From Nitrososphaerota archaeon (GTDB lineage: Archaea > Thermoproteota > Nitrososphaeria > Nitrososphaerales > Nitrosopumilaceae), in the NCBI GenBank assembly GCA_022574415.1, contig JACZSC010000001.1, positions 1 through 63,463 on the forward strand: DNA of 63,463 nt. Direction: 5' to 3'. Below, piece after piece: positions 7,447 through 29,072 of the stretch (position 1 is the stretch's first letter; each line of letters begins with the position of its first letter). The notes below the pieces were generated by a model. The model was not told the DNA's origin and searched no databases. It saw only the letters and a list, made by a program, of their open reading frames with translations. The translations under genes and the position numbers were made by a program.

Positions 7447-7480
7447 TTTGATACGAACTGCATAATCCTGAAAATTCTTA
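7447..7480 (+). repeat. Full dispersed repeat (left and right halves)
   Basis: The left half TTTGATACGAACTG is followed six bases later by the right half CCTGAAAATTCTTAA. This is the same bipartite unit found repeatedly in the island at 17.8-23.0 kb and once at 40.0 kb. Here it lies alone, just beyond the 3' end of the minus-strand ahcY, oriented so that any transcript from it would run antisense to ahcY. No plus-strand gene follows. Confidence 0.7.
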
Positions 7481-7481
7481 A

Positions 7482-7493
7482 GTTTAGCTAAAC
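7482..7493. other. Perfect 12-base palindrome GTTTAGCTAAAC beside the repeat
   Basis: It directly abuts the right half of the dispersed repeat. The repeat's AATTCTTA and a TAAGAATT about 20 bases downstream form an outer inverted repeat around it. The whole block could fold into a hairpin or act as a binding site at the 3' end of ahcY. The remaining roughly 230 bases of this intergenic region (7214-7446) show no gene. Confidence 0.4.
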
Positions 7494-14469: not shown

Positions 14470-15474
14470 TTGTTCTACACATCATTCGATAATGTATCTT
14501 TAGTCAAGATAGTATCTTTTTTAAAATCGCACAATTCAGAATATTTGTCGGGTCAAGATCTTAGTGACGTACTAAAAATTAGTAGAGTAGCAGTATGGAA
14601 ACATATCAAAAGAATTCGTTCCCTAGGCTACAAAATTGAATCAAAACAAAAGCTTGGCTATAGACTGGTCAACAATACAAAGCAATTACTACCATGGGAG
14701 ATAACTAATGGGCTAAATACCAAATTGATTGGTAAGCGAGTTTACTATTTCGACACAATAGATTCAACACAAAATTTTGCTATCAAGATTGCATCAAATC
14801 CCATTGAGAACGGTGTCGTGGTTATCTCTCAAAAACAAACTAGAGGCAGGGGAAGATTTGGTAGAAAGTGGTTATCTCCAGAAGGTGGAATTTGGTTATC
14901 AATAGTACTCCATCCAACATTTGATATTTCAGTGATAACTCTGTTTCCTATTGCAGCTTCCCTTGGATTGGCAAACGCAATTGAAAAAACGTTTCAAATT
15001 GATTCTAAATTAAAATGGCCAAATGATGTAACGATTAAAGGAAAAAAAGTTGCAGGGATGTTGGTTGATGCTTCTGTTGAATCAAACAAAATTGAATATC
15101 TAGTGTTAGGAGTGGGAATAAATTTCCAAGTTAATTCCAAACAATTAGAAAAATCTCTTAAAAAAACTGAAAATTTTTACGGCATAGCCAGTCTAATTGA
15201 TAAAAATGAAAATCAAAGCCCAATTTTGCTTGTTCAGAACTTTCTTAATGAGTTAGAAAATGTCATAGAATTACTAAATAAAGAAAAAAGAAAGATCATC
15301 ATAAAAGATTGGACAAAAAAATCATCCAGTGTCGGGAAAAATATTACAATTTCTACCTATAGTGGTGAGATCAATGGAAAGGCTATCAGGTTAGATGATG
15401 ATGGAGCTTTAGTAATTAAAAATAACAAAAATACCCAAAGAATTCTTGCTGGAGATGTGATACATCACACTTAG
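14470..15474 (+). CDS. birA: Biotin-protein ligase with N-terminal HTH (BirA)
   Basis: The enzyme activates biotin as biotinyl-AMP and attaches it to the carboxyl carrier protein. In this group that is the acetyl/propionyl-CoA carboxylase of the 3HP/4HB cycle. The N-terminal helix-turn-helix (about residues 18-55, ISRVAVWKHI) suggests it also represses transcription. The catalytic domain has the family motif RGRGRFGRKWLSPEGG and KWPNDV, and a C-terminal SH3-like domain ends the 334 residues. The start appears to be TTG. No better start fits the HTH. An own-promoter operator cannot be picked out. Confidence 0.92.
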   Translation: MFYTSFDNVSLVKIVSFLKSHNSEYLSGQDLSDVLKISRVAVWKHIKRIRSLGYKIESKQKLGYRLVNNTKQLLPWEITNGLNTKLIGKRVYYFDTIDSTQNFAIKIASNPIENGVVVISQKQTRGRGRFGRKWLSPEGGIWLSIVLHPTFDISVITLFPIAASLGLANAIEKTFQIDSKLKWPNDVTIKGKKVAGMLVDASVESNKIEYLVLGVGINFQVNSKQLEKSLKKTENFYGIASLIDKNENQSPILLVQNFLNELENVIELLNKEKRKIIIKDWTKKSSSVGKNITISTYSGEINGKAIRLDDDGALVIKNNKNTQRILAGDVIHHT

Positions 15475-15486
15475 AAAATTAATACA

Positions 15487-15831
15487 TTAACGCTTTCGTT
15501 TTGCTGATTTTCTTCTCTTGGTGGATTTTTTTTTCTTAGTTTTTTTTCTAATAGGTTTTCTTTGAGATCTTTTTTTCACAGATTTTTTTAATTGATCTTG
15601 AATTTTGATAATTTTTGTTAATGTATTCTCAAGTTGTTTGGAATATTGATCATATGCTGTTAATAATTCAGATTTTTTCTCATCAGTCTTTGTCAAAAAA
15701 TCATTCGCTCTTAGCAAATTGGTTGAATTAATTAACTCAGGTATTGGATTTTGGTCGTTAGATAAAGCTGAAAGTTCGTTCTTCGTTTGTATGATCTTTC
15801 TTTTTAATTCACCAATTGTTTTTGTAGCCAA
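15487..15831 (-). CDS. Small coiled-coil protein with strongly basic tail
   Basis: This 114-residue protein has helical, coiled-coil-like residues 1-85 and a C-terminal tail of about 25 residues that is almost entirely lysine and arginine (KKTKKKKSTKRRKS). The tail suggests nucleic-acid binding, as in other small thaumarchaeal chromatin-like proteins. There is no recognised domain. It is convergent with birA, 12 bases apart. Confidence 0.6.
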   Translation of the reverse strand: MATKTIGELKRKIIQTKNELSALSNDQNPIPELINSTNLLRANDFLTKTDEKKSELLTAYDQYSKQLENTLTKIIKIQDQLKKSVKKRSQRKPIRKKTKKKKSTKRRKSAKRKR

Positions 15832-15970
15832 AATCCTCCAATTACTTCAAGCGCTTTTTTCGGATAAAGCTTTTCTCATTACAGCAAAGATGTAAGGTTG
15901 TAAATAATAGAAAAAACTCGAACAAATTAGGAATAAAATATAACTAAAAACAAAATTCTCTGTATTCATA

Positions 15971-17392
15971 ATGAAAAAATCAATTATTTTGATGTTAATC
16001 ATAATTATGGCTGCATTAAGTCCTTCCCAAATTTTTGCACAGGAAACGAATGACGTTCCTGTGATGTTCCAAGAAGCTAACAAACATTTTGCAAAAGGTG
16101 AGTATAATGAGGCAGTAAAAATCTATGACAATGTTTTAGAAATTGTTCCAGATAATGTTTCTACTTTAAAGATGAAGGGAATCGCATTAAGTAATATGGG
16201 CTATCATGAAAAATCTCTCAAACAATTTTATAAAATCATTCAAAAAGAACCAGATAATGTGATGGCCCTGACTGGGATGGGAGTTGGTTTTGGATATTTG
16301 GCGGAATACCATGAAGCAAAACAATATTTCAAAAGAGCGTTAGAGATTGATCCTGACAGTACTGTAATCAAAAATTATATTGACTATGTAGATACAGTCA
16401 TTACCAAGTATCCATACACATCTACTGAAAAACCCGAACCGGTTATTGTTAAACCAGCAATCATACCTCTTTGGGTAAAAAGCAACGCAAAGTGGTGGTC
16501 AGATGGCGGTATAGAAGATTCTGATTTTATAACTGGAATTCAATTTCTCATTGATAATAAAATTATGCAAATTAACACTCCGCGAGGCAGCGATGTGTCT
16601 TCACAATCCATCCCTGATTGGGTAAAAAACAATGCAGGTTGGTGGGCGGATGGATTGATTTCTGATCAAGATTTTCTATCTGGCATTTATTTTATGATTC
16701 AAAATGGAATTATGGTAATCAATATTGAAAAAAGTTTGGAAGAGATAGAAAAAGAAAGAAGTGCTGATTTTTGGTTATTTGAGAGATATATTAGCGCTAT
16801 TTCAAAAAATGTTGCGAACGAAAAACGCTATATTGAATTTCCGAACCCAAGCTTCGATGTAATTAAGAAATTCCTTCGAGATTATGTAATTTGGAATTTT
16901 GATGAGGAAGCTTCCAACGCAGCAGCTAAATTTCCAGATCCTGTTTATGAAATTGTAAATGGGACATATATCATTCATTACAAAATTTACGTAAACGAAC
17001 AACCATCAGGTTTACCATTAGACCATGTCAGTACCTTTGAAAATTCATTGCATTTTTGGCAAACTCAGGGTTTTAATGTAAATAATCAGAAAGCCAAGGT
17101 AGATTTTTCATACACAAATATGAAACATGAAGCTAATGTTTGGGTCACTTGGGTTGTTCGGAATTTAGGTGAAGGGGTATTGGGACATGCTCATGTAGGA
17201 AAAGGTGTGGTAGAAGTGGCGCTAGGAGATTATTCTTGTGATGGAAGTTTTCAATTGTATGACGTAGAAAGTGTTGAAACAATTATGACTCATGAGTTAG
17301 GACATTCTGTTGGACTTCAACATGGCAATGATCCAAATAGTATCATGTTTCCTAGCTTCAAGCCAAGTTATGCATATTGTTTATTGAGTTAA
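15971..17392 (+). CDS. Secreted TPR protein with matrixin-like metalloprotease domain
   Basis: This 473-residue protein has an N-terminal signal peptide (about residues 1-24, ending IFAQE), then three TPR units (about 30-135). Two copies follow of the thaumarchaeal W-V-K-x-N-A-x-W-W-A-D-G repeat, near residues 165-205 and 215-255. The C-terminal zinc-protease domain has HELGHSVGLQH followed by SIMFPSF, i.e. HExxHxxGxxH plus the Met-turn of metzincins. It probably acts outside the cell or at the S-layer. The combination of TPR, surface repeat and metzincin is unusual. The substrate is unknown. Confidence 0.85.
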   Translation: MKKSIILMLIIIMAALSPSQIFAQETNDVPVMFQEANKHFAKGEYNEAVKIYDNVLEIVPDNVSTLKMKGIALSNMGYHEKSLKQFYKIIQKEPDNVMALTGMGVGFGYLAEYHEAKQYFKRALEIDPDSTVIKNYIDYVDTVITKYPYTSTEKPEPVIVKPAIIPLWVKSNAKWWSDGGIEDSDFITGIQFLIDNKIMQINTPRGSDVSSQSIPDWVKNNAGWWADGLISDQDFLSGIYFMIQNGIMVINIEKSLEEIEKERSADFWLFERYISAISKNVANEKRYIEFPNPSFDVIKKFLRDYVIWNFDEEASNAAAKFPDPVYEIVNGTYIIHYKIYVNEQPSGLPLDHVSTFENSLHFWQTQGFNVNNQKAKVDFSYTNMKHEANVWVTWVVRNLGEGVLGHAHVGKGVVEVALGDYSCDGSFQLYDVESVETIMTHELGHSVGLQHGNDPNSIMFPSFKPSYAYCLLS

Positions 17393-17447
17393 CGCATTCC
17401 GTAAACATAACATGTCTTTTATTCGATAGAATCCATTTACTAGAGAT

Positions 17448-17777
17448 ATGCAAAGATCAAAACTAGCCTTCGATACTACTGAACAATCCTATTCAGAGTT
17501 CAGACAAGCTTGTAAATCAAAGGCCACTCTGAAATCATATACAGAGTGTGTAAACCGATTCATGAGGCACTGTGGATATACATCATATGATGAACTGGTA
17601 AAAACAAATCCAACTAAGATCAGAGTAGACTTTTCAAACTTTTTCAGCTACATGAGAGACCGGTTTGATTTAGGAGAAATTAGATCAGCGTATTTCAGGC
17701 CTCATATCAGCGGTTTAGAATTATTCCTAGTTCAGAATGACGTAGAACACACAAAGCCTAAGAATCGAAAATCCTGA
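17448..17777 (+). pseudogene. Truncated tyrosine recombinase, N-terminal SAM-like domain only
   Basis: The 109 residues match the core-binding (SAM-like) N-terminal domain of phage/XerC-type integrases: an early helix with TLKSYTECVNRFMRHCGY and a second helical pair ending near IRSAYFRPHISGLELFLV. The catalytic domain with the R-H-R-Y residues is absent. The last codon and the TGA stop lie inside a copy of the dispersed repeat (ATCCTGAAAATTC), so the repeat marks the truncation point. It is the first gene of the accessory island and probably a relic of the element that built it. It could be expressed but cannot recombine by itself. Confidence 0.6.
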
Positions 17778-17795
17778 AAATTCTTAATTCTTAGT
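17771..17795 (+). repeat. Dispersed repeat, right half; putative leaderless promoter
   Basis: This is the right half, CCTGAAAATTCTTAATTC plus TTAG. GAAAAT fits an archaeal BRE and TTCTTAAT an AT-rich TATA position. The centre of ATTCTTAATT lies 27.5 bases before the next ATG, the distance expected for a leaderless transcript. It also supplies the stop codon of the truncated recombinase. Confidence 0.65.
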
Positions 17796-17811
17796 TTAAC
17801 CTAGAGAATTC

Positions 17812-17952
17812 ATGACCACAGCAGAAAAAGGTGTTAAAAAAGTAAAAAGGCGTTCTACTGTTAGTGAAACTCGTATTAAGAAATTGGTAAATAGAATCGA
17901 GAATCTAGAAAAACAAGTTAAGAAAATAAATTCTAAATTGAAAAAGAATTAG
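17812..17952 (+). CDS. Lysine-rich coiled-coil micro-protein (46 aa)
   Basis: The reading frame encodes 46 residues starting MTTAEKGVKKVKRR. The C-terminal half is an amphipathic heptad-like helix (RIKKLVNRIENLEKQVKKI), a likely dimerising coiled coil, and about a third of residues are lysine or arginine. It could bind nucleic acid. The ATG sits 27.5 bases after the repeat's AT core, supporting a real leaderless gene. No family is recognised. Confidence 0.55.
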   Translation: MTTAEKGVKKVKRRSTVSETRIKKLVNRIENLEKQVKKINSKLKKN

Positions 17953-17966
17953 TTTTTCCTATTTTT

Positions 17967-18030
17967 TCACCTTAATTGTTCCAGTTTGAATTCAATCTCA
18001 TCAATCTGACGTTGATGTCTCTCGATGTAG
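17967..18030 (-). pseudogene. Possible remnant of a coiled-coil ORF without a start
   Basis: The minus strand reads YPYIERHQRQIDEIEFKLEQLR and then a stop, a protein-like amphipathic helix. Upstream in the same frame a TGA follows within a few codons and no ATG, GTG or TTG is available. It may be the decayed tail of a gene. It may also be chance coding similarity within an island intergenic region that otherwise contains only inverted repeats. Confidence 0.2.
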
Positions 18031-18110
18031 GGGTAAATGTTTCAATCTGTTTCTGTTATGCGTAAAAACAAGTTTACTGATCAAAAAACAAGTTAGTGAT
18101 TTAATCTTTC

Positions 18111-18140
18111 AAATCTAATGATGATTAGATTTAATTTTTT
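18111..18140 (+). terminator. Hairpin with T-run, terminator-like
   Basis: AAATCTAAT and ATTAGATTT form a perfect 9-base stem with a GATG loop, followed by AATTTTTT. This is the shape of an intrinsic terminator. Archaea mostly need only T-rich tracts, so the hairpin may instead be an operator for the gene that begins 45 bases later. Confidence 0.35.
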
Positions 18141-18184
18141 GATCAAAGTATAAAATTGAAATAGTATAGCAGGAATCTTTGAAT

Positions 18185-18367
18185 ATGAAAGCGAAATTTT
18201 TTACAGGCGATTCCATTGAGTTGGATAAATCTGTGAACACTTTTTTGGATGAAGTAGGAAATATTCGCATCAAGAAGGTACAAATGGTTTCAACAAACGA
18301 AAAGAGTGCTTTGGATGAGGCTGAGTTTGGTGTGATGATTTTTTACGTAAAGAAAGAAGAAGACTAA
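18185..18367 (+). CDS. Small Cse60-like protein
   Basis: This 60-residue protein begins MKAKFFTGDSIELDKSVNTF and ends VMIFYVKKEED. Size, the opening KxKFFTGDS and the closing hydrophobic strand recall the Cse60/DUF2758 family of small proteins named after a Bacillus sporulation-regulon member. A TTG two codons earlier is possible, but the ATG is preferred. A dispersed repeat begins directly after the stop codon. The function is unknown. Confidence 0.55.
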   Translation: MKAKFFTGDSIELDKSVNTFLDEVGNIRIKKVQMVSTNEKSALDEAEFGVMIFYVKKEED

Positions 18368-18368
18368 A

Positions 18369-18394
18369 CTGAAAAAATTCTTAATTCTTAGTTT
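18369..18394 (+). repeat. Dispersed repeat, right half; putative leaderless promoter
   Basis: The copy has one extra A in the A-run (CTGAAAAAATTCTTAATTC). It touches the stop codon of the Cse60-like gene, and its AT core lies 27.5 bases before the ATG of the HNH-like gene, exactly the spacing seen at 17.8 kb and 40.0 kb. Confidence 0.65.
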
Positions 18395-18408
18395 AGGCTA
18401 GAAAACAC

Positions 18409-18642
18409 ATGGGCAATAGGAAAGATTTCAGTCAAACTGAGCTTTTGAAGTATCTTGGTCAATTTACTGTTAATAGGGCTAGATGTGAAAAATGTGGAAT
18501 AACTGCACTTGATGCAAAATTAAACTTACATCACAGAGACGGAAATTCTGAAAATGACAGTTACAAAAACATTGCAATCTATTGTGATAAACATCATAAT
18601 ATTATTGAAGGACGAGATAAGACAATAAATCAATTAAGATAA
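18409..18642 (+). CDS. Small HNH-nuclease-like zinc protein
   Basis: This 77-residue protein has the HNH layout CEKCG ... LNLHHRDGNSEN ... NIAIYCDKHHNII. There are two CxxC/CxxH metal pairs and a central HH-R-D-G-N signature. HNH proteins of this size occur in viruses and mobile elements as nucleases or nuclease remnants. Catalytic histidines are retained, so activity is possible. It is part of the repeat-punctuated array, with a repeat directly after its stop. Confidence 0.75.
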   Translation: MGNRKDFSQTELLKYLGQFTVNRARCEKCGITALDAKLNLHHRDGNSENDSYKNIAIYCDKHHNIIEGRDKTINQLR

Positions 18643-18666
18643 CCTGAAAATTCTTAATTCTTAGTT
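18642..18666 (+). repeat. Dispersed repeat, right half; putative promoter
   Basis: CCTGAAAATTCTTAATTC plus TTAGTTT directly follows the TAA of the HNH-like gene. The AT core is 23.5 bases before the first and 29.5 bases before the second in-frame ATG of the next gene, which is compatible with a very short leader. Confidence 0.6.
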
Positions 18667-18677
18667 TGGAGTGAAAG

Positions 18678-18929
18678 ATGGGTATGATTATCAGAAAACA
18701 TCAACACAAGAGGATCAAATGTGAAGTTTGTAAAAATGTAAAGAATGCAACATTAATTCACGCAAAAAAGAGCTGGCGTAAAGTATGGGATGGTCAAATG
18801 GTTTCAGAAGTAGACACGTTTATCCTACAATACAGAATAGGAAAACACCAGCACGGATCTAGACTTTGCAAGGGCTCAGATAAAGTACAATCCAGAGAAC
18901 ATGATGGGATGATTAACTCTAGTTTTTAA
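18678..18929 (+). CDS. Small CxxC protein of unknown function
   Basis: This 83-residue basic protein has one CEVC pair near residue 15 and a later cysteine (RLCKG), with several histidines (KHQHKR, KHQHGS) that could complete a zinc site. GGAG precedes the first ATG. A second ATG two codons later is also possible. It is flanked on both sides by copies of the dispersed repeat. No family is recognised. It may be a virus- or plasmid-derived DNA-binding protein. Confidence 0.5.
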   Translation: MGMIIRKHQHKRIKCEVCKNVKNATLIHAKKSWRKVWDGQMVSEVDTFILQYRIGKHQHGSRLCKGSDKVQSREHDGMINSSF

Positions 18930-18937
18930 CAGTCGTA

Positions 18938-18956
18938 ATCCTGAAAATTCTTAATT
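18938..18956 (+). repeat. Dispersed repeat, right half; putative promoter of a small RNA or micro-ORF
   Basis: ATCCTGAAAATTCTTAATT lies ten bases after the previous stop. A start site about 28 bases downstream (near 18979) would produce a transcript containing the strong hairpin and 22-codon frame described next. Confidence 0.55.
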
Positions 18957-19009
18957 TCTATCTTGAATAGTTGTGATTACATAACCTTTTTTTGTAAGAA
19001 GAATCAAAA

Positions 19010-19078
19010 ATGTACAATTGGTTTGCACGCCAACAACCTAAAGATATGTCTCAAGACATATCTTTAGAAAGTTGTTAA
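19010..19078 (+). CDS. Possible 22-residue micro-ORF
   Basis: ATG to TAA encodes 22 residues beginning MYNWFARQQPKDMSQD. The stop codon abuts another repeat copy, as the stops of neighbouring genes do, which argues for a real unit. The same bases form a near-perfect hairpin, so the region may instead be a structured RNA. There is no ribosome-binding site, and no homologue is known to me. Confidence 0.3.
   Translation: MYNWFARQQPKDMSQDISLESC
19032..19076 (+). ncRNA. Strong hairpin, candidate small RNA
   Basis: AACAAC, then CTAAAGATATGT, a six-base loop CTCAAG, then ACATATCTTTAG, AAA and GTTGTT. The inner stem is 12 perfect base pairs and the outer stem six, separated by a three-base bulge. 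It is bounded by two copies of the dispersed repeat, one of which could serve as promoter. It overlaps the 22-codon frame. Confidence 0.4.
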
Positions 19079-19094
19079 TCCTGAAAATTCTTAG
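19077..19094 (+). repeat. Dispersed repeat, short right half
   Basis: AATCCTGAAAATTCTTAG. This copy lacks the second TTAATTC block. No gene starts 28 bases downstream. The 267 bases from here to the next gene hold no tRNA, clear ORF or strong fold that I can see. Confidence 0.55.
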
Positions 19095-19361
19095 ACCCAG
19101 TGTATCATGTTAAGAGATTGTTGAAATCCAAGTGAGGTAGGTACAAAGGAATCATGCAAACAACACTATTCAATCCTCACTCAGACACTCTATAATACAC
19201 TTCAATTCTTTTAAGCCTTAGCCACACTTGATGAAGAATTATGTTCTGAGCCTGTCTTAAAAACATACGGGCGAACCTCGTTATTTATTTGAATTATTTG
19301 GTATTTAGTTAATTGAGTAAAGCAAAGTTAAGAATTTAACACAGAATTATTATCTGAAATC

Positions 19362-19718
19362 ATGCCATCTATGGTATCTCTACTTTTTGTAGGTGCTCTT
19401 GGCGTTTTTTTATTTTTGTTTATCTTTACCCCATTCGAAACAGAAGATTTAGATCTAATTATGGTGAATGTGAGTGGTGGAGTTGAAACTGTAGGTTTTT
19501 CAACTGACCCTTTCAAACTTGAATTTACTAAAAAATCCTCAGACCAACCCATTACGATATTATTGGATGATAATTACCAATATTCAGTTTCATTGTTCAC
19601 TGGAACATATGATGTTAAAGTATTTTACACCACGATTGGAGACATAACTACTTTGGATTGTGATGCAGGAACGCATGATATTGACTTTGATATTGATAAC
19701 CTTAATTTCAAATGTTAG
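19362..19718 (+). CDS. Small membrane-anchored protein of unknown function
   Basis: This 118-residue protein has one N-terminal transmembrane helix (about residues 5-24, rich in phenylalanine and leucine) and an exported domain of about 90 residues that looks like a beta-sandwich (VSGGVETVGF, ITILLDDNYQYSVSLFTGTYDVKVFYT). Two cysteines near the C-terminus may be disulphide-linked. The fold recalls carboxypeptidase-regulatory or Ig-like surface domains. A dispersed repeat follows eight bases after the stop. Confidence 0.6.
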   Translation: MPSMVSLLFVGALGVFLFLFIFTPFETEDLDLIMVNVSGGVETVGFSTDPFKLEFTKKSSDQPITILLDDNYQYSVSLFTGTYDVKVFYTTIGDITTLDCDAGTHDIDFDIDNLNFKC

Positions 19719-19723
19719 AAAGT

Positions 19724-19743
19724 AATCCTGAAAATTCTTAATT
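19724..19743 (+). repeat. Dispersed repeat, right half
   Basis: AATCCTGAAAATTCTTAATT between the membrane-anchored protein and the response regulator. The AT core is about 67 bases before the GTG start of the regulator. If it is a promoter, this transcript would have a leader of about 40 bases. Confidence 0.6.
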
Positions 19744-19805
19744 TGACTGTAAAGGAATAGTTTTGACTAATATGTTAAAACAAGAATGCTAAGGGTTTTT
19801 CATAC

Positions 19806-20231
19806 GTGTATAGAAATATTCCTAAAATGTTGTCAAGCGTCGCTGACATGGATGTTTTGATTATTGAAGACGCTAAACCTCTAGCATTTCTACTTACTAA
19901 GTATTTAAAAAAACTTGGTTATCGGAAAATTCACTGTTGCGAGAATGGCACTTTAGGAATACGGAAATTTCAAGAACTGGTTGAATCAAATATTGTGCCT
20001 ATTGTCTTCTTGGACTATTATTTACCAGATCTTGATGCACCGGTGGTCTTAAAGCGAATTCTTAAGATTCATCCTGGTACAGAGGTGATAGTAGAAACGG
20101 TAGCAAATCAAAATGAAAGTGGCATTAAGGGGTTATTCGAACTTGGGGCACATGAGTATTTTCCAAAACCGTACGAACCTGAGAAGCTAGAAGAGATAAT
20201 GAACACTATTCAAGCCAGACGCAGACCCTGA
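19806..20231 (+). CDS. Stand-alone response-regulator receiver protein (CheY-like)
   Basis: This 141-residue single receiver domain has an acidic pair in VLIIEDAKP, phospho-acceptor aspartate in VFLDYYLPD, a switch threonine in VETVANQ and conserved lysine in YFPKPYEP. There is no output domain, so it probably signals through protein contacts. The GTG start is uncertain. In-frame ATGs at codons 8 and 15 would still give a complete domain. No kinase lies nearby. The histidine kinase at the right end of the window is the closest candidate partner. Confidence 0.85.
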   Translation: MYRNIPKMLSSVADMDVLIIEDAKPLAFLLTKYLKKLGYRKIHCCENGTLGIRKFQELVESNIVPIVFLDYYLPDLDAPVVLKRILKIHPGTEVIVETVANQNESGIKGLFELGAHEYFPKPYEPEKLEEIMNTIQARRRP

Positions 20232-20250
20232 GCTCATCACAACAAATTGA

Positions 20251-20280
20251 CATTTGATACGAACTGTAAACCTGAAATTA
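20251..20280 (+). repeat. Dispersed repeat, intact left half and degraded right half
   Basis: CATTTGATACGAACTG is intact, but the right half has decayed to CCTGAAATTA. It lies between the response regulator and the 3' end of a convergent minus-strand gene. Confidence 0.55.
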
Positions 20281-20282
20281 GA

Positions 20283-20774
20283 TTAATTGCCTTTACAAGT
20301 TTCATGTGCCCATCTCTCAATAGAGTAATCAGTACTTTCTAGTTCAGATTCATTAATTATTTTACAATCCTTTATTCTAAGAGATTCACCAACAGACCTG
20401 AATTTGCTTATATTAGTTGGGTCTTTTGAAAATAATAGTAACAATCTACAATTTCCCTTTAGAATCCTATTTTTCCATTTTAAATAATTTGGTTCTTGGC
20501 GCATATGTGATCTATAAAGACCAAAATTGATTTTTTCATAGGATGCTTTCGGATTTTCATAAATAACGATTGCGTAATCATCGAGATTATATTCAATAAA
20601 ACGTACTCTTGTAAAATTTGGATTCCAATTTCTAATTTTTGAAAGAACGTGATTTGCTTTTTCTAGATTATCGAAATAAGGACATACCAATAAGTTTCCA
20701 TTTTTTTCTGTATATGCAATACCAATAAAATCAGGATACCAAAATTGTGCAAATTTTTCAGTCATATTTTTCAC
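20283..20774 (-). CDS. Hypothetical protein in the island
   Basis: This is a 163-residue soluble protein of mixed alpha/beta pattern, rich in aromatic residues (FAQFWYPDFIGIAYT, WKNRILKGNCRLLLLF). No catalytic motif, signal peptide or membrane segment is visible. The start may be the ATG three codons later. Its 3' end abuts a degraded repeat copy. I do not recognise a family. Confidence 0.55.
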   Translation of the reverse strand: MKNMTEKFAQFWYPDFIGIAYTEKNGNLLVCPYFDNLEKANHVLSKIRNWNPNFTRVRFIEYNLDDYAIVIYENPKASYEKINFGLYRSHMRQEPNYLKWKNRILKGNCRLLLLFSKDPTNISKFRSVGESLRIKDCKIINESELESTDYSIERWAHETCKGN

Positions 20775-20901
20775 ATGAATACAAAATTATTAAAGATAAT
20801 CACAATTTTTCATGTTCTTTCATATTCAAGATCTGCTCTTGTAATTTTTTTAATTTCCTCTGTCTTTACTGGGAATGAATCATAACCTCTTCTCTCTTTT
20901 T

Positions 20902-20926
20902 TAATCCTGAAAATTCTTAATTCTTA
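20902..20926 (+). repeat. Dispersed repeat, right half, overlapping a minus-strand stop codon
   Basis: AATCCTGAAAATTCTTAATTC continues into the TTA that is the stop codon of the minus-strand gene. No plus-strand gene follows, so a promoter role here would give only an antisense transcript. Confidence 0.6.
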
Positions 20927-21220
20927 ACCACACTTGAAAATAGCTTCTTTAATTTCTCTCATTCTTCTTAAAATTACCCGGTTAGCTTCATCAAGTTCAT
21001 CCTCACTGGACTGGCGTTGGTGTCTTGCAACAAAATATTCGATAAAACGACCATAAATTATACCTGTTGCAAACCCTAAAACAAAATCATCTGCTTCCTT
21101 ATACTGTCCATGTTTTTGGTAATCTTCAACCCTGGCCATCGTTACAAGATTTGGCACTTCTCCGACTGTCCTATCAATTGTTTTTTCTAAATATGCTCTA
21201 TCTTCATTATCGAGTGGCAC
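20924..21220 (-). CDS. Small helical protein of unknown function
   Basis: This 98-residue acidic protein, predicted helical, includes the glycine-rich central segment FVLGFATGIIYGRFIEYF, perhaps membrane-associated or a core helix. Charged helices flank it. Its stop codon lies inside a repeat copy. No family is recognised. Confidence 0.55.
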   Translation of the reverse strand: MPLDNEDRAYLEKTIDRTVGEVPNLVTMARVEDYQKHGQYKEADDFVLGFATGIIYGRFIEYFVARHQRQSSEDELDEANRVILRRMREIKEAIFKCG

Positions 21221-21343
21221 ACAAAAAACATGTTTTAGAATTATTTAAAGTGCGAAAAATACTTTTTTTATTTCATTTCATACGAACTATCGATGAATAT
21301 GGCTAAATTATTAAATCAACTTCGGTTAAATTAATTCTAGAAA

Positions 21344-22528
21344 TTGATAGAAATTGTTTTGTCCGTGTTATCGTTTCTAGTATTATCTGCATACGCAGAG
21401 GAACCTCCAGATTATTTTAATCCATACGCACCGATTTTTACCGACAAAGAAGTATACTCATGGACGGACAAGGTGCACATAACAATTGTAGCACCAAGCT
21501 GGAATGCCAACAAATATGGCATTGATTCTATTGGTACTCAGGATGGTCATTTCATCAAGATTTCCACTGCTGGTCATTCTCTTGAACCATACAAATTAAC
21601 AGAGACCGAACCGAACAGCGGTGTATTTGTTGGCGAAATAATTCTTACTGGTTTTTTACATGATGTTGATGATGATGGAAATCCAGATACTAATCCACGT
21701 ACAGTTGGAAGTGGCCCAACTAATGGTTTCTTGGAGGTTGAGCGAGATGGAGGATTGACAATATCATTTGAATTTGCAGATGGTGTTGTCCTAATTCACT
21801 CTGCAACGATAAGTTGGAATATCGGACAAATAATTTTCGACAAACCAATCTTTTTAGTTGGAGAGACAGCTAAAATTCGAGTAATCGATCCTGATATGAA
21901 TCTCAATCCAGAGACAGTAGACCGAATTGAAGTAGAAGTTTCATCTGATTCCGATGTAGCAGGAATCCTTGTTGATGCAATAGAGACGGAGGATGACTCG
22001 GGATTGTTTGAAGCTATGGTTTCTTTTACACAGAATAGTGTCTCAAGTGGCAATCGGTTATTCGCTATTCCAGGTGATTCAATTTACGCAAAATACGAAG
22101 ACAATACACTTCCTTCCCCCTATAGCATACAAGATGACTTGGATATTCAAATCGAGTCCAAACTTGAATCGGAAGTTCCACCTATTCAAAGAATTTCTGT
22201 TGAAGATGTTTTCCTTGCTGATAGTTTTGGCATTCCAATAGAACCAACAATTAACGAACAGATTCAAATTGTGGGCATGATTACTAACAATCAAAATTAT
22301 GATCAAATCTTTGTATACATTATACAGGTACGAGATCAAGACGGAACGGTGGTTTACTTATCTTGGATTCAAGGAGAACTGACATCAAATCAGAGTCTAG
22401 AGCTGTCTCAATCATGGACTCCAACAGGAGCTAGCAACTATGTCATTGAAACTTTCGTTTGGGATTCACTAAAGGATCAAATTCCTCTTTCACCAAATTC
22501 ATCCCTGTCTTTATTCAATAATGATTAA
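21344..22528 (+). CDS. Secreted beta-sandwich surface protein
   Basis: This is a 394-residue exported protein with TTG start and a signal peptide of about 18 residues ending SAYAEE. It is composed of repeated beta-sandwich modules. The segments TETEPNSGVFVGEI and ETEDDSGLFEAMV are two copies of the same E-T-x-x-S-G-x-F motif, common in thaumarchaeal S-layer-associated proteins, with acidic calcium-binding-like loops (DVDDDGNPDT). The final 110 residues resemble a CARDB-like domain (NEQIQIVGMITNNQNYDQIF). A tandem pair of dispersed repeats follows the stop directly. Confidence 0.72.
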   Translation: MIEIVLSVLSFLVLSAYAEEPPDYFNPYAPIFTDKEVYSWTDKVHITIVAPSWNANKYGIDSIGTQDGHFIKISTAGHSLEPYKLTETEPNSGVFVGEIILTGFLHDVDDDGNPDTNPRTVGSGPTNGFLEVERDGGLTISFEFADGVVLIHSATISWNIGQIIFDKPIFLVGETAKIRVIDPDMNLNPETVDRIEVEVSSDSDVAGILVDAIETEDDSGLFEAMVSFTQNSVSSGNRLFAIPGDSIYAKYEDNTLPSPYSIQDDLDIQIESKLESEVPPIQRISVEDVFLADSFGIPIEPTINEQIQIVGMITNNQNYDQIFVYIIQVRDQDGTVVYLSWIQGELTSNQSLELSQSWTPTGASNYVIETFVWDSLKDQIPLSPNSSLSLFNND

Positions 22529-22564
22529 CATTTGATACGAACTGTTTAATCCTGAAAATTCTTA
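22528..22564 (+). repeat. Dispersed repeat, full copy, first of a tandem pair
   Basis: Left half ACATTTGATACGAACTG and right half CCTGAAAATTCTTAG in the standard arrangement. It starts at the stop codon of the surface protein. Four bases later a second left half begins, so the unit of about 41 bases is tandemly duplicated. Confidence 0.72.
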
Positions 22565-22565
22565 G

Positions 22566-22596
22566 TTAACATTTGATACGAACTGTAAACTCGAAA
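22566..22596 (+). repeat. Dispersed repeat, second tandem copy with degraded right half
   Basis: TTAACATTTGATACGAACTG is identical to the preceding copy, then the right half decays to CTCGAAAAAG. The identical left halves show that the duplication unit begins at TTAACATTTG. Confidence 0.68.
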
Positions 22597-22654
22597 AAGT
22601 AGCTAATAATAGCTGACTAGTATTACATATTGTCTAGCACAATTCATTCTAAAC

Positions 22655-22759
22655 ATGGCACAAACAAAAACACAACGACGTGCTGCTGGCCTAAAAGGTG
22701 CTCGTACAAGAAAAAGAAATGCAGCCACAAAAAAAGGTTCTAAAAGAAAGAGACGTTAG
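22655..22759 (+). CDS. Very basic micro-protein (34 aa)
   Basis: The frame encodes 34 residues of which about 16 are lysine or arginine (MAQTKTQRRAAGLKG, KKGSKRKRR). It has the composition of a small nucleic-acid-binding or ribosome-associated peptide. It stands between the tandem repeats and a zinc micro-protein on the same strand. Its short length leaves room for doubt. Confidence 0.5.
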   Translation: MAQTKTQRRAAGLKGARTRKRNAATKKGSKRKRR

Positions 22760-22793
22760 AATCAATTTTTCCTTTTTTAAAAATTGAGTAATT

Positions 22794-22904
22794 ATGAACT
22801 TTAAATGTAAAAACTGTAGAAAGGAATTTGAGTTATTCAATAGTGAATTTTGTTGCATGGAATGCCTCAATGATTATTATCTTAAAGGGCACGCAAAATA
22901 CTAG
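22794..22904 (+). CDS. Zinc-finger micro-protein (36 aa)
   Basis: The frame encodes 36 residues with CKNC and, 12 residues later, CCMEC, giving a four-cysteine treble-clef-like site (MNFKCKNCRKEFELF). It resembles small zinc ribbons of archaeal viruses and plasmids. It lies 34 bases after the basic micro-protein, so they may be cotranscribed. Confidence 0.55.
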   Translation: MNFKCKNCRKEFELFNSEFCCMECLNDYYLKGHAKY

Positions 22905-22999
22905 GTAATCAATTAGGAATCCAGTATGTTTGTTTCAATATCTAATTCAAACGCTCTTTGAAATCCTATACAGGAACCACATCTGAATGGATTCGATTA

Positions 23000-23032
23000 C
23001 ATTTGATACGAACCGTTATTCCTGAAAATTCT
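23000..23032 (+). repeat. Dispersed repeat, full copy with small changes
   Basis: CATTTGATACGAACCG then CCTGAAAATTCTAAA. It lies 12 bases beyond the 3' end of the minus-strand zinc-ribbon gene, again touching a gene end but antisense to it. Confidence 0.65.
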
Positions 23033-23043
23033 AAAACACTAAA

Positions 23044-23208
23044 TCATTTCTTGTATTTTATAACTCTGGGTTTATTCCAATAAGGAGAACGACATTTAGT
23101 ATTAGCACAAGTCTTAGGCCATTGTTTCTTACTAGTCCACTTATTCTTACATCTGTTACACGTGTGTAACCATAACTCTGTGCCAGGAACCTTAGAACTC
23201 ACGCTCAT
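23044..23208 (-). CDS. Zinc-ribbon micro-protein (54 aa)
   Basis: The minus strand encodes 54 residues with HTCNRCKNKWTSK and TCANTKCRSPYW, i.e. C17-x2-C20 and C34-x4-C39, followed by the basic SPYWNKPR. This single zinc ribbon with the R-S-P-Y-W-N ending is typical of small archaeal DNA-binding proteins. It is transcribed divergently from a micro-ORF operon, and the palindrome-rich spacer between them suggests shared control, possibly by this protein. Confidence 0.72.
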   Translation of the reverse strand: MSVSSKVPGTELWLHTCNRCKNKWTSKKQWPKTCANTKCRSPYWNKPRVIKYKK

Positions 23209-23272
23209 TATATACACTAATTGTATATATTAATTATGAATATACGTAATACGTATATACATGATATGTATA
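23209..23272. promoter_or_regulatory. Cluster of three palindromes in a divergent promoter
   Basis: TATATAC/GTATATA (7-base loop), TATACGT/ACGTATA (AAT loop) and TATACAT/ATGTATA (GAT loop) follow one another, the last two overlapping. All share the form TATAYRT-N3-AYRTATA. They separate the divergent zinc-ribbon gene and the micro-ORF operon and contain TATA-like sequences for both directions. This is what a dimeric repressor's operators would look like. Confidence 0.6.
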
Positions 23273-23281
23273 TAGATAAGC

Positions 23282-23467
23282 ATGGAAAAACAAGTACTAG
23301 AAATCATAAAGGAAAAAGACACCTACAAAATATCTGTAGAAATATCAGAGAACTCCAAACAAGAGCCTAGTATTACAATCAAAGTACACACAGACGGATC
23401 AACCAAAGACGCAGTGGATGAGGCTCTAGAACAATACAGACGAGCTAAGGAAGAGCTTAAGAAATGA
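23282..23467 (+). CDS. Small helical/beta protein, first gene of a micro-ORF operon
   Basis: This 61-residue protein (MEKQVLEIIKEKDTYKISVE start) has two beta strands followed by a charged helix (AVDEALEQYRRAKEELKK). It could be an antitoxin-like or DNA-binding helper, but no motif decides. The ATG lies ten bases after the palindrome cluster. Its stop overlaps the next ATG (ATGA), starting a chain of four such overlaps. Confidence 0.65.
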   Translation: MEKQVLEIIKEKDTYKISVEISENSKQEPSITIKVHTDGSTKDAVDEALEQYRRAKEELKK

Positions 23468-23562
23468 GACTCTTGTTATCAGAATCCTGTGAGGCCGTAA
23501 GGTGTCAAGAATGCACGTATTCTAACTGCATATGCTACTGTCACAGAGACTGTGAAGAATGA
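23464..23562 (+). CDS. Cysteine-rich micro-protein (32 aa)
   Basis: Thirty-two residues with six cysteines: RCQECTYSNCICYCHRDC. Together with the histidine they could form one or two zinc sites. It overlaps both neighbours by four bases (ATGA), which argues for translation coupled to the operon. Nothing similar comes to mind. Confidence 0.5.
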   Translation: MRLLLSESCEAVRCQECTYSNCICYCHRDCEE

Positions 23563-23708
23563 ATCTAACATTCAGGTGCTCAATCTGTGGCAAGGATCTA
23601 CTGCCTTACGAGGTAAAAAAACACGAGCAATATGAAATCGAGCAAAGTATTTTCAAGCATCTCAATTGTAAGAAGAAACACAGCCACACCAAAAGATGTC
23701 TACAATGA
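23559..23708 (+). CDS. Zinc-finger-like micro-protein (49 aa)
   Basis: Forty-nine residues with CSICGKDLLPYEVKKHEQ and HLNCKKKHSH, giving CxxC followed by several H/C candidates as in a C2H2-like finger. It overlaps the preceding and following frames by four bases each. It probably binds zinc, and the role is unknown. Confidence 0.5.
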   Translation: MNLTFRCSICGKDLLPYEVKKHEQYEIEQSIFKHLNCKKKHSHTKRCLQ

Positions 23709-23782
23709 ATCAACAAGAACTCATCACCATCATTCTAAAGCAATTTAAAAAAATAGAAGAATTAGAAAAAAAACTAAAATGA
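23705..23782 (+). CDS. Coiled-coil micro-protein (25 aa), last of the overlapping chain
   Basis: Twenty-five residues, a single amphipathic helix (LKQFKKIEELEKKLK) resembling the C-terminal coiled coil of the 46-residue protein at the other end of the island. It overlaps the preceding stop by four bases. Too short to be sure, but the ATGA overlap supports it. Confidence 0.35.
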   Translation: MNQQELITIILKQFKKIEELEKKLK

Positions 23783-23836
23783 GCTATCGATTGATCTACA
23801 TAAAATTTTTAACACTTTGCTGGATTGTGAATTAGA

Positions 23837-24139
23837 ATGAATTACATAATTGATGAGTGTGTCAGCATAAAAACTAAAGAGCAGTTTAGAGTCAAGAACG
23901 TTAATGGTTTTGTTCACTCCATCAACGTTCTAGGTAAGGGAGCAACAGATGAAGAGGTTTTCGAGTTAGTTAAGAGGAATAAAGCAGGTTTAATCACACT
24001 TGATAAGAGATTTGCACTAAGTGTTCTTCAATCGGGTTATACGGTAATTCTACCAGGTCATGAGAATATACGAATTAAGCCAATTATTGACAAATCTCCA
24101 AAGTACTCTGATCCACTAACGTACTATTTGTTAGAGTGA
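23837..24139 (+). CDS. PIN-like (DUF5615-type) putative nuclease
   Basis: This 100-residue protein has the acidic first motif IIDECVS, GATDEEVFELVKRNKAGLITLDKRFAL in the centre and a final strand VILPGHENIRI. The order D-E, then D-E-E, then the T-x-D-x-D/R strand fits the Mut7-C/DUF5615 PIN-like RNase family, often toxins of toxin-antitoxin pairs. No classic antitoxin gene is adjacent. The micro-ORF operon 55 bases upstream is the only candidate partner. It marks the right end of the island. Confidence 0.7.
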   Translation: MNYIIDECVSIKTKEQFRVKNVNGFVHSINVLGKGATDEEVFELVKRNKAGLITLDKRFALSVLQSGYTVILPGHENIRIKPIIDKSPKYSDPLTYYLLE

Positions 24140-24334
24140 TAAGGTCATAATTCCATGATTTTTCCTTTAATTTGATAACGTAACTATGTGGTCTATTGAA
24201 TTAAAAATTTTATATGCTAATTTTGTATCGTGTATTTCCAAAACTGCTTAAATTAGCTTAACCTACACCCAAATCACCCTAAGATTTTTTGTAAAATCAT
24301 AATAAGGCAATGTTTTGTTATTAACAAGTTTATC

Positions 24335-25246
24335 ATGATGCAAAATACTGCAATTGCAAAACAACGTTGTCCATCTTGTGGCAAAAGAAAGATTGTAACT
24401 GATGAAAACTCTGGTGAGTTGTTTTGTGCTTTTTGCGGTTTAGTAATTAATGACAAAATAGAAGATGCTGGCGCAGAGTGGAGAACATTTTCAAATGAAG
24501 CACCTGCTAGGAATAGAGTAGGTATAGGTACTTCATTAACCATGCATGATATGGGTCTTTCAACTGTTATTGGTGCAGCTAACAAAGATTCAACAGGAAA
24601 ACCACTTTCTGCGAGCATGAAGAGTTCAATTGAAAGACTACGAACTTGGGACAGTAGAACACAAGCTCATTCTTCTTCAGACAGAAACCTAAGACAGGCT
24701 TTGAATGAAATGGACAAATTAAAAGATAAGCTTGCACTTGCTGATGCGGTAATTGAAAAGGCAGCATATATTTACAGAAAGGCAATGGAGAAAAAATTAG
24801 TAAGAGGTAGATCAATTCAAGGTCTTGTTGCAGCATGTTTGTATGCTGCATGTAGAAACACAGAAACACCACGAACTCTTGATGACGTTGCAAAAGGAAT
24901 TAACATTAGGAGAAAGGATGTTGCCAGATGTTATCGTTTACTTTATAGAGAATTAGAATTCAAAATGCCTGTCGTTGATCCTGTTAAAGCAGTTTCTAGA
25001 ATTGCAAGCATTGTTGAACTAGGTGAAAGAAGTAAAAGAAAAGCGGTTAATATTTTAAATCAGGCGAAAAAAATTGGGCTTGTTGCTGGAAAGGATCCAA
25101 TGGGAATGGCAGCAGCCGCACTTTATATTGCGTGTATAACTTCTGGCGAAGTAAAATCTCAGAAACAGATCTCAATGGCATCTGGTGTTACTGAAGTTAC
25201 TATAAGAAACAGATGTGCCGGATTGAGAAAAATGCTTCAAGATTAG
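24335..25246 (+). CDS. tfb: Transcription initiation factor IIB (TFB)
   Basis: TFB binds TBP-TATA complexes and the BRE and recruits RNA polymerase. The N-terminal zinc ribbon has CPSCGKRK and CAFCGLVI, then the B-reader segment, then two cyclin folds (about residues 105-200 and 205-300), with QGLVAACLYAACR and GMAAAALYIACI as the matching core helices. Length 303 residues is normal. A second ATG immediately follows the first, so the start is uncertain by one codon. The 195-base upstream region carries a small GATTTT/AAAATC hairpin and AT-rich promoter sequence. Confidence 0.97.
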   Translation: MMQNTAIAKQRCPSCGKRKIVTDENSGELFCAFCGLVINDKIEDAGAEWRTFSNEAPARNRVGIGTSLTMHDMGLSTVIGAANKDSTGKPLSASMKSSIERLRTWDSRTQAHSSSDRNLRQALNEMDKLKDKLALADAVIEKAAYIYRKAMEKKLVRGRSIQGLVAACLYAACRNTETPRTLDDVAKGINIRRKDVARCYRLLYRELEFKMPVVDPVKAVSRIASIVELGERSKRKAVNILNQAKKIGLVAGKDPMGMAAAALYIACITSGEVKSQKQISMASGVTEVTIRNRCAGLRKMLQD

Positions 25247-25254
25247 AAAATCTG

Positions 25255-25812
25255 TTATTCAAATTCTGGCAGAACATCGGTTCCTTGTCGTCTGGTTACC
25301 AGAAATATTCCAATTGTAAATCCGGCCTGATAAAATGCATACATTAGAATTTGAAAAACTGTAGGTACAAAATCTGTAAATCTACCAATTCCAGCTACTA
25401 GTACTGTAATCACACTAACAGTGAATACGAAATAACGAGCTGGTTTTGATAATTCGGCAGAACGCAAAAATAGTATAACAGTAATCGAGATAAACATTAC
25501 AACAATCGTTGCAAACCCAGCATTCAACCCCAAGACATTAATCAAAAGGGTGTAACCTTCCTCAGTGGTTGTGGGTACTGTGAAATTGGCAATTGTGAGT
25601 TTTTCAGGCACTGCAAATTTCAACACGCTCGCCAAAGCATTGAAAGAAAAAAGTAGCAGAAGGGTAAAAGAAACGATTCTTGCATGACGTTTTAGTCCAG
25701 GAAATCTTTTTCGAACGCCTCTACCCAAAATTGAACCTTGTAAAATCCCAACACTCAGCACGACGGCGAATGAGATAAGAAAATTTTCTTCTGCAATTTC
25801 AAATAGACTCAT
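25255..25812 (-). CDS. Polytopic membrane protein of unknown function
   Basis: This 185-residue protein has about five hydrophobic helices (near residues 10-27, 43-62, 88-110, 124-144 and 150-170). There is no transporter signature, conserved histidine pattern or signal peptide. It is convergent with tfb, eight bases apart. No family is recognised. Confidence 0.65.
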   Translation of the reverse strand: MSLFEIAEENFLISFAVVLSVGILQGSILGRGVRKRFPGLKRHARIVSFTLLLLFSFNALASVLKFAVPEKLTIANFTVPTTTEEGYTLLINVLGLNAGFATIVVMFISITVILFLRSAELSKPARYFVFTVSVITVLVAGIGRFTDFVPTVFQILMYAFYQAGFTIGIFLVTRRQGTDVLPEFE

Positions 25813-25940
25813 TAGAATATAATTGAGTTAAAACAGATTCTAATTAATTTGAAAGATCACTATATTTTATCAATTGATCTTCCAATTTGAATTAGATCTG
25901 GATAAAATGTTTTAAAAGAATGATCAAATTGCGGATAGAT

Positions 25941-26007
25941 TCGATTCAGTTTCCCCAAGCGTTGTTCATTAGAATTTGTTTCTTGCTTCCTGCAGCCCCT
26001 GAATCGA
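25941..26007. ncRNA. Candidate structured RNA (nested inverted repeats)
   Basis: TCGATTCAG and CTGAATCGA form a perfect 9-base outer stem around about 49 bases. Inside, AAGC and GCTT can pair, and C-rich patches (TTCCCC, GCAGCCCC) make it GC-richer than the flanks. It lies in a 245-base gap between two minus-strand genes without any ORF. Strand and class are unknown. It could also be an operator. Confidence 0.3.
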
Positions 26008-26057
26008 GCCACCTCACATTTCACATAAAGAAATTTTCATGAAAGTTTAGAAATTTT

Positions 26058-26447
26058 TCAAAATGTTGTGACGTAATCTCTCAGATCTTTGATTAAATCC
26101 ATTATGGCAAAAGCAATTTTTGAGAAATCGATTTCGCATTCCCCTGATGCCAATAATACATCATCATCAGCTAATGGAAAACTCATGATGATTACTTTTT
26201 CTCTATACGACATGGCGAAATGAACACGTCCAAGCTCTTTATCAAAATCACGACGCATTCTAACACGAAGAGCTAATTCCATGAACATCATCTCATCATG
26301 TTTTGTCTCTTCGAGAGACTTGAGCCCCTCCTTCATTCCACCGGCAACGAGATGTCCTCTGTTGCTAATTATTCTAGCAGAACGCATTTTTGGATCTAAT
26401 TGCATGATTTTTTGACAAATTTTTTCCAATTCCTCTACGCTAACCAT
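26058..26447 (-). CDS. Roadblock/DUF6659-like protein, copy 1
   Basis: This 129-residue soluble protein has the alpha/beta pattern ARIISNRGHLVAGGMKEGLKSL ... GRVHFAMSYREKVIIMSFPL ... VLLASGE. This layout (a strand with a buried glycine turn, a helix, and a two-strand unit ending in I-x-S-F-P) matches thaumarchaeal DUF6659 proteins with a roadblock/LC7-like fold, which often regulate small GTPases. Two relatives lie at 31.8 and 32.7 kb. It is divergent from phaE. Confidence 0.6.
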   Translation of the reverse strand: MVSVEELEKICQKIMQLDPKMRSARIISNRGHLVAGGMKEGLKSLEETKHDEMMFMELALRVRMRRDFDKELGRVHFAMSYREKVIIMSFPLADDDVLLASGECEIDFSKIAFAIMDLIKDLRDYVTTF

Positions 26448-26500
26448 CGTTAAACATCTACTAGGGATCTATTTATTGCGATCTGTTTTACTAGAATGTT

Positions 26501-27076
26501 ATGAAATCTGAATCAACTCAGAATGTTGCAGAATATTACAAACATCTTTCCTTATTTTGGACTGACTTGATACACTTGATGTCAACAAAACCTCAAGCCA
26601 TGACATCGGTGGGTCCAATGAGAAATTTTGCTGAAAATTCTAAAAAAATTGCTGCTCAGTTAATTGATGCAAATGAAGACCTGATGGAATTCAACAAGCA
26701 CTTGGCCGAATACTATAAGCAATTAACTGATACTTGGATGGAATCACAAAAGAATGTAAACTTTAAAGCTCCTGAAATTCCAAATGATGCAGAGCAATAC
26801 GAGGCATACAAACGCGTCTGGATTGATATCTTTGATAATGACTTTACAGAATTATTCGATTCTGAAAAGTTTGGAGAAAATTATGGAAAACTTGTTGCAA
26901 AGGAATTAGAACTAACAAAACACTGGAATGGCATCATGGATGTAATGTTGAAATCTGCAAATCTTCCAAACAAGGAAGAGATTGATGAGGTATACAAAGA
27001 ATTACATTCCTTACGAAAACGAGTTTCAAAGCTTGAATCAGAAGCACACAAAAAGGTGAAGAAAAATGGCGAATGA
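26501..27076 (+). CDS. phaE: PHA synthase subunit PhaE-like
   Basis: This 191-residue helical protein of acidic composition (WTDLIHLMSTKP, YKQLTDTWMESQKN) ends in a coiled coil (ELHSLRKRVSKLESE). Class III polyhydroxyalkanoate synthases need such a PhaE partner to activate PhaC. It overlaps phaC by 11 bases, the usual gene order. The identification rests on context and helical pattern, as PhaE sequences vary widely. Confidence 0.82.
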   Translation: MKSESTQNVAEYYKHLSLFWTDLIHLMSTKPQAMTSVGPMRNFAENSKKIAAQLIDANEDLMEFNKHLAEYYKQLTDTWMESQKNVNFKAPEIPNDAEQYEAYKRVWIDIFDNDFTELFDSEKFGENYGKLVAKELELTKHWNGIMDVMLKSANLPNKEEIDEVYKELHSLRKRVSKLESEAHKKVKKNGE

Positions 27077-28130: not shown

Positions 28131-28178
28131 AAAAAATTATAAAAAAGGGAAAAATGGATTTGGGGTTTAATCCAACAT

Positions 28179-29029: not shown

Positions 29030-29072
29030 AGGTAATAGTAGGAAATGAGTGGTATATATAGACTTCGGTTGG

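Follow-up and report, generated by a model that had tools for sequence, protein, structure and literature searches.

What are the short repeats that crowd positions 17,768-23,042 of the window, by which we mean the whole stretch of DNA analysed here, a 63-kb contig (C135) within a 1.34-Mb, 149-contig Nitrosopumilaceae genome? The first-pass annotation described them as one bipartite repeat and offered four possible roles: mobile short element, recombination site, terminator or promoter module. We find that they belong to two independent site families, A and B. Both are very probably site-specific recombination sites that border mobile gene cassettes, in an integron-like system on archaeal chromosomes. 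Four genomes of one Nitrosopumilaceae genus carry both families, and the relatives that bear the repeats are metagenome-assembled genomes (MAGs) of Nitrosopumilales/Thaumarchaeota, NPMR_NP_theta_1 and NPMR_NP_theta_2 among them. The NPMR MAGs were sampled from deep-sea sediment cores (PMC8397731), and the host clade is one of sediment ammonia-oxidizing archaea. Site statistics other than pattern counts come from fetched loci, which are enriched for sites, and array statistics from 468 A or B sites in fetched loci of the four genus genomes.

Two families of sites

The repeat copies as such are real, exceeding the numbers in shuffled sequence more than 10-fold. CCTGAAAATTCTTAATTC, allowing at most 3 mismatches, is matched 9 times in the window, where shuffles lead one to expect 0.33, and ACATTTGATACGAACTG is matched 6 times, where 0.31 are expected; all of these are on the plus strand, as is every site copy in the window. 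Genome-wide there are 45 exact copies of CCTGAAAATTCTTA and 0 of the reversed control pattern. The term bipartite had to be abandoned, since the two halves separate: the right half is family A and the left half family B, B without A (e.g. at 20247) and A without B (e.g. at 17768 and 18638) are both numerous, and where the two stand in tandem the order varies (33 B-A, 13 A-B). Most of the copies listed at first are genuine, including one outside the array at 7447, which is a real B plus A (7441-7488). The copy at 18369 is a degenerate A, a degenerate B at 21270-21293 had been overlooked, and the copy at 39998, having 3 mismatches and thus being at chance level, is rejected as a site.

The consensus of site A, derived from 172 copies, is TTAATCCTGAAAATTCTTAATTCTTAG, within which CTGAAAATTCTTA is nearly invariant. 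Site B reads TTAACATTT-GATACG-AACTGTTAA, that is, near-identical inverted 9-bp arms around a spacer of exactly 6 bp. When fetched loci were scanned for the arms only, 287 pairs were found at a spacer of 6 bp, and 0, 2, 1 and 0 pairs at 4, 5, 7 and 8 bp, respectively; five scrambled-arm controls gave 0-1 matches. Several spacer sub-types (CGTATC, TGTATC, CATATC, GTTATG and TTAATG) occur on the conserved arms. This 9-6-9 layout is the geometry of a tyrosine recombinase (dif-like) site. An Rfam search of the repeats returned nothing credible.

Both patterns are specific, as a scan of related genomes confirms: they are essentially restricted to the genus, with near-zero controls. The four genus genomes contain 45, 20, 53 and 16 exact A cores, and 102, 46, 86 and 102 B sites (at most 1 mismatch in 17 bases; reversed control 0). 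The A 27-mer, with at most 3 mismatches, occurs in 4 of 121 genomes, all of the genus, and in 0 of the 117 others. Outside the genus, B is present in 31 copies in G011, which belongs to another genus, in 4 copies in G032 from a third genus, and in 0 of 55 others. With the spacer left free, a further 11 copies appear in G075, from a fourth genus, and nearly all remaining genomes stay at control level.

Signs of exchange at the sites

The sequences on either side of the sites speak for recombination. Among all pairs of A sites, only the left flank is shared in 45, only the right in 31 and both in 0, and the corresponding figures for B are 74, 60 and 5; these are counts of pairs and not of independent events, which makes them strong evidence, yet not literal probabilities. 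Inside the site, identity drops in each direction, from around 0.9 to around 0.3, and the outer edge of an arm travels with its own flank. As an independent line of evidence, the ends of BLAST alignments are enriched at the sites, with 274 of 1,326 at most 20 bp from an A core (26 for random positions, with a maximum of 51 in 200 trials). At the level of sequence, the shuffling of junctions can thus be taken as demonstrated.

Differences between species have the same boundaries. In three allele pairs (G000:C6 and G001:C227; G001:C172 and G003:C4; G001:C227 and G002:C143), a segment carried by one species is lacking in the other, where a single recombinant B is left. In this residual site, the left portion comes from one flanking site and the right portion from the second, a configuration that fits gain and loss of the segment alike. 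The spacers in the paired alleles are identical or differ at 1-2 positions (n=3 events). Empty alleles, whose existence in sister genomes had been posed as a check, are therefore real, and the absence from G001 of the whole island that holds the window's array (see below) adds another.

These alleles bear directly on the idea of a mobile short element, in the form of a short non-autonomous transposable element, similar to a miniature inverted-repeat transposable element (MITE) or a repetitive extragenic palindrome (REP), that inserts near gene ends while gene-order changes have unrelated causes. Dispersal, high copy number and intergenic position all fit such an element. However, what moves is the gene-bearing segment between the sites and not the repeat, so that a self-mobile element is unsupported; the paired alleles retain one recombinant site instead of a repeat-less target with a duplication; and neighbouring sites 40-3000 bp apart have the same orientation in 242 cases and opposite orientation in 25. 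We therefore regard this explanation as very unlikely.

Segments are also shared across genus boundaries. A 1.42-kb aminotransferase segment of G011 is 96% identical to its counterparts in both G001 and G000, against a median identity of 71% for long alignments between those genera. On the same 71-kb G011 contig, the core gene that adjoins the window's isolated site shows 75% identity to the version in the window. The aminotransferase match ends at a B site, beyond which the three genomes continue with three different sequences. A second case of sharing between genera involves G032 and G003.

Could unrelated contigs simply have been joined at short repeats during assembly or binning? The genus genomes are MAGs of 80-300 contigs each, and some repeats lie near contig ends, as this explanation would have it. 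Against it, the pattern recurs in four separate MAGs, probably five, the differences are precise single segments between collinear flanks, and the shared segment and the core gene in G011 are on one 71-kb contig. Moreover, the repeats, at 24-27 bp, are shorter than usual assembly k-mers. An artefact of this kind is improbable in the extreme. Together, flank shuffling, the geometry of B, site-bounded presence or absence and sharing between genera strongly support the recombination site among the roles proposed at the outset.

Cassette arrays and their cargo

The sites form arrays. Among B neighbours alone, 172 are direct and 21 inverted. There are 61 arrays of at least three sites, the longest with 16 sites in 9.5 kb; the array in the window has 11 sites by strict criteria. 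Segments between sites have a median length of about 600 bp and contain one or a few small genes, a single open reading frame (ORF) being the most frequent content of A-A segments. The cargo varies widely, comprising response regulators, cupredoxins, TFIIB, methyltransferases, hydrolases, kelch proteins and numerous unknowns, and the content of the window's array is of the same kind. Two cassettes contain genes for TFIIB, a general transcription factor, and four contain response regulators, which indicates that regulators are themselves shuffled.

According to the first-pass annotation, every copy touches a gene's 3' end or lies within about 50 bases of one. This is correct as a tendency and not as a rule: for 60% of the A sites and 67% of the B sites, a same-strand ORF ends within 120 bp upstream, compared with 35% of random positions. 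Many A copies also stand shortly before the start of a gene. An ORF of at least 45 codons starts with ATG at +39 to +41 from the A core at 22 of 178 A sites, where random positions predict about 1.5. For B, the test for a peak in start-codon distance gave none. Hence the promoter module can be retained for a subset of A sites, but not for B. A appears to carry a promoter-like signal for roughly one in eight of the segments downstream of it, and its distance to the ATG would fit the leaderless transcription of archaea, with a TATA-like element inside A.

The start-codon spacing and the location near ORF ends could also be taken to mean that the repeats are promoter or 3'-end elements kept for their function, and that their surroundings are shuffled when short repeats undergo ordinary homologous recombination or repair. 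Yet B is shuffled as much as A although it has no start-codon peak, a promoter needs neither the exact 9-6-9 geometry nor the spacer sub-types, and the system is confined to a single genus or a small number of genera. In addition, 14-24 bp is a very short substrate for homologous recombination. We consider this regulatory explanation unlikely.

Some further features accompany the sites. At L082:8886-8940, there is a 41-bp "empty" cassette, free of genes, with the order A core, B, A core. A segment of about 45 bp that resembles GGGTCTAAAATAAAACCAAAAACGGTGCGGGTCTCAATGGATTCG recurs on either side of B sites (L075, L177, L216 and others) and is possibly a third element. Several distinct cassettes (L074, L079, L089) share the 3' end TTTAGTTAAATCGGATCTTAAT directly before site A.

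Mechanism and candidate recombinases

The simplest account of these observations would be conservative site-specific recombination between two like sites. A segment between two direct repeats of one family would be excised, probably as a circle, and one site would stay behind, its left part inherited from one parent and its right part from the second. Another site of that family could then receive the segment by insertion or joining, which would generate head-to-tail arrays and changing gene orders. Judging by the architecture of B, with its 9-bp inverted arms, 6-bp spacer and spacer sub-types, the enzyme acting on it most likely belongs to the Xer-like tyrosine recombinases. A is exchanged in the same manner, with an enzyme and an arm structure that are less clear.

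PF00589 matches in the genus represent more than one subfamily, several in all. Integrases are encoded directly upstream of sites in the same orientation in the window, G000:C118, G000:C57 and G002:C81, which is suggestive. Only one genus-restricted XerA-like gene was found (G003:C53, G002:C40, G002:C81), whose product of 311-312 amino acids has XerA and a XerC-like archaeal recombinase as its closest PDB sequences. At L194:2409-5547 (G003) and L196:3636-6657 (G002), the XerA-like recombinase lies directly 3' of an ORF of 694-739 amino acids.

Several points count against recombination by a dedicated cassette system. A search for one dedicated recombinase failed, in that none could be tied to the sites: the tyrosine recombinases adjoining sites are of different subfamilies, and the XerA-like gene resides in an integrated element with no sites nearby, with no counterpart found in G000, G001 or G011. 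An inverted-arm model was sought in site A, and no convincing arm pair emerged. The left end of the aminotransferase segment has no recognisable site. Finally, the genus genomes are all fragmented MAGs.

The recombinases also bear on the proposal that the window contains a true integron array that has no integrase (CALIN), its repeats being attC single-strand hairpins with paired R''/R' and L''/L' boxes, handled by IntI, an integrase with a specific extra domain. The small genes between direct repeats, mostly in one orientation, would suit this proposal, and archaeal MAGs have been reported to contain integrons (PMC9668308). However, when 10 recombinases of the genus were compared with the IntI model TIGR02249, the best match scored 30.3 bits, far below the cut-off of 265; because the MAGs are incomplete, this does not prove IntI absent. 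Upstream of A or B, there is no excess of inverted partners similar to the R'' box of attC, and the minimum free energy at the sites indicates weaker folding than in control sequence nearby. B is a compact, symmetric 24-bp duplex site. The CALIN proposal is thus largely refuted already, and we assign it a minimal probability. With folding weaker at the sites than nearby, a terminator is likewise unsupported.

The array and island in the window

The array lies in a variable island of 6.8 kb (17393-24193) that the sister genome G001 lacks: window positions 14607-17392 and 24194-29428 adjoin each other in G001:C99 (subject gap -11). At this empty locus, a gene for a 473-amino-acid protein is directly joined to the region that precedes the TFB gene. 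In G002 and G021, the latter a single-contig genome, the same locus contains another gene, which reads as ferritin-like. The island is flanked by an imperfect 11-bp direct repeat on the plus strand, TATTGAGTTAA on the left (17382-17392, at the end of the 473-amino-acid gene) and TATTGAATTAA on the right (24194-24204). Including these borders (17382-24204; border motif TATTGARTTAA), it is inserted at the 3' end of the 473-amino-acid gene. In G003, the same gene end (L283) also bears what has the appearance of an integrase N-terminal remnant. The right end of the island (23837-24139) encodes a DUF5615/PIN-like protein (Pfam E=4e-7).

The island begins with what is probably an N-terminal fragment of a tyrosine recombinase (109 amino acids, 17448-17777, plus strand), which has no catalytic domain and ends in the first A site. 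Its match to Pfam Phage_int_SAM_4 (E=0.0069) falls short of the cut-off; BLASTP aligns it with a 416-amino-acid integrase of the same genome (E=5e-6), and a local hidden Markov model of genus integrases gives E=5e-5.

Sites in the window, all on the plus strand, were scored against the 27-bp consensus of A and the 24-bp consensus of B. The first A (17768-17794) has 2 mismatches and is followed by a degenerate A with a 2-bp insertion and an altered left half (18366-18391). Four A sites come next, at 18638-18664, 18935-18961, 19075-19101 and 19722-19748; the 140-bp segment after the second of these recurs in G001:C126. Further on are a B with 2 mismatches (20247-20270), an A with 1 mismatch (20901-20927) and a degenerate B with 7 mismatches (21270-21293), whose downstream sequence is the one that follows a good B in G001:C172. 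Two B sites with 1 mismatch each (22525-22548 and 22566-22589) enclose an A (22546-22572), and the same B-A-B composite exists in G002:C109. In G002:C116 and G003:C3, the sequence after the B at 22566 likewise stands behind a B, but one preceded by other neighbours. The array ends with a B (22996-23019) and an A (23016-23042).

Between these sites, the plus strand encodes a coiled-coil-like protein of 46 amino acids (17812-17952, with its ATG 39 bp past the start of the A core), one of 62 amino acids that ends at a site (18179-18367), one of 77 amino acids that reads as a small HNH nuclease and has no significant Pfam match (18409-18642), and proteins of 83 (18678-18929) and 118 amino acids (19362-19718). 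A response-regulator receiver protein follows (19806-20231; PF00072, E=3.9e-15). The ORFs for 163 (20283-20774) and 98 amino acids (20924-21220) are on the minus strand and thus reversed relative to the sites. The largest cassette ORF (394 amino acids, 21344-22528, plus strand) encodes a probable secreted protein with weak Pfam matches only.

Outside the array, an isolated B (7441-7464) is overlapped at its end by an isolated A (7462-7488), both on the plus strand. In G002, the left flank of this pair meets a B-like site and then other DNA, and the right flank is on another contig. The sites may thus mark chromosomal rearrangement points, too.

Comparison with known systems

Among the open-access papers searched, we found none that links Nitrosopumilus or archaea to such arrays, and the NP-theta genome paper makes no mention of integrase, cassette, mobile or recombinase. 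Two sets of database matches were set aside. The 19-mer of site A occurs in Beggiatoa/Thioploca relatives (L097, L110, L113, L115, L121, L140), with a different anatomy that suggests convergence: the exact 19-mer is embedded in degenerate AATCCTG-type heptad repeats that end in GATTCAGAC. In giant sulfur bacteria, such degenerate heptad repeats are found near genes in inverted form (AATCCTGAAAATTCTTAAATCCTG...GATTCAGAC), and convergence with site A is probable. The few matches in viral contigs lie within coding sequence and look like chance.

Among the known systems, dif sites consist of two arms and a 6-bp spacer, and the archaeal XerA/dif system has a single terminus site with 11-bp arms (PMC2958812). 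The inverted arms and the 6-bp spacer are thus not foreign to archaea, and two of the genomes encode XerA-like proteins. The difference is one of number and cargo, since tens to more than 100 sites per genome are spread over many contigs here, together with genes. Integrated mobile elements of thaumarchaea, which are islands linked to tyrosine recombinases with short direct repeats at gene ends (PMC6563490), resemble the island in the window; the survey covers whole elements with att sites and no multi-site cassette arrays.

In dif modules (pdif modules) of Acinetobacter plasmids, accessory genes are bounded by short tyrosine-recombinase sites with 6-bp spacers and undergo extensive shuffling with crossover inside the site; the flanking sites are inversely oriented (C and D modules alternate), recombining sites share the spacer, the modules are mainly plasmid-borne, and XerC plus XerD are used (PMC13141974, PMC6449649). 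The archaeal system shares the gene-bounding sites, the shuffling, the crossover within the site and, for B, the 6-bp spacer (A has no clear arms). It differs in that neighbouring sites are direct (172:21 for B), chromosomal, as dense as 16 in 9.5 kb, and accompanied by a second, unrelated family.

The shuffling of gene cassettes is a known engine of adaptation in bacteria. If our interpretation is true, abundant nitrifiers of deep-sea sediments have a distinct archaeal cassette system, which would account for part of their flexible gene content and for exchange between genera. The exact DNA sites given here are open to direct testing and could seed genetic tools for archaea, which have almost none.

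Another parallel in organization is the integron or CALIN, with which the archaeal arrays have in common small head-to-tail cassettes, sites in one orientation (242:25), diverse cargo and sharing between species. They differ in lacking attC-type folding, an inverted partner, a detected IntI and a recognised attI platform, and in the symmetric duplex structure of B. The one report of archaeal integrons that we found is of the attC type (PMC9668308), and the A/B system would be distinct from it. Whether it amounts to a third natural cassette platform beside integrons and dif modules seems to us an evenly balanced question. Such a platform would combine two unrelated site families per array, one of them supplying promoters, with chromosome-wide distribution, no fixed entry site, gene trade between genera of ammonia-oxidizing archaea and a previously undescribed recombinase.

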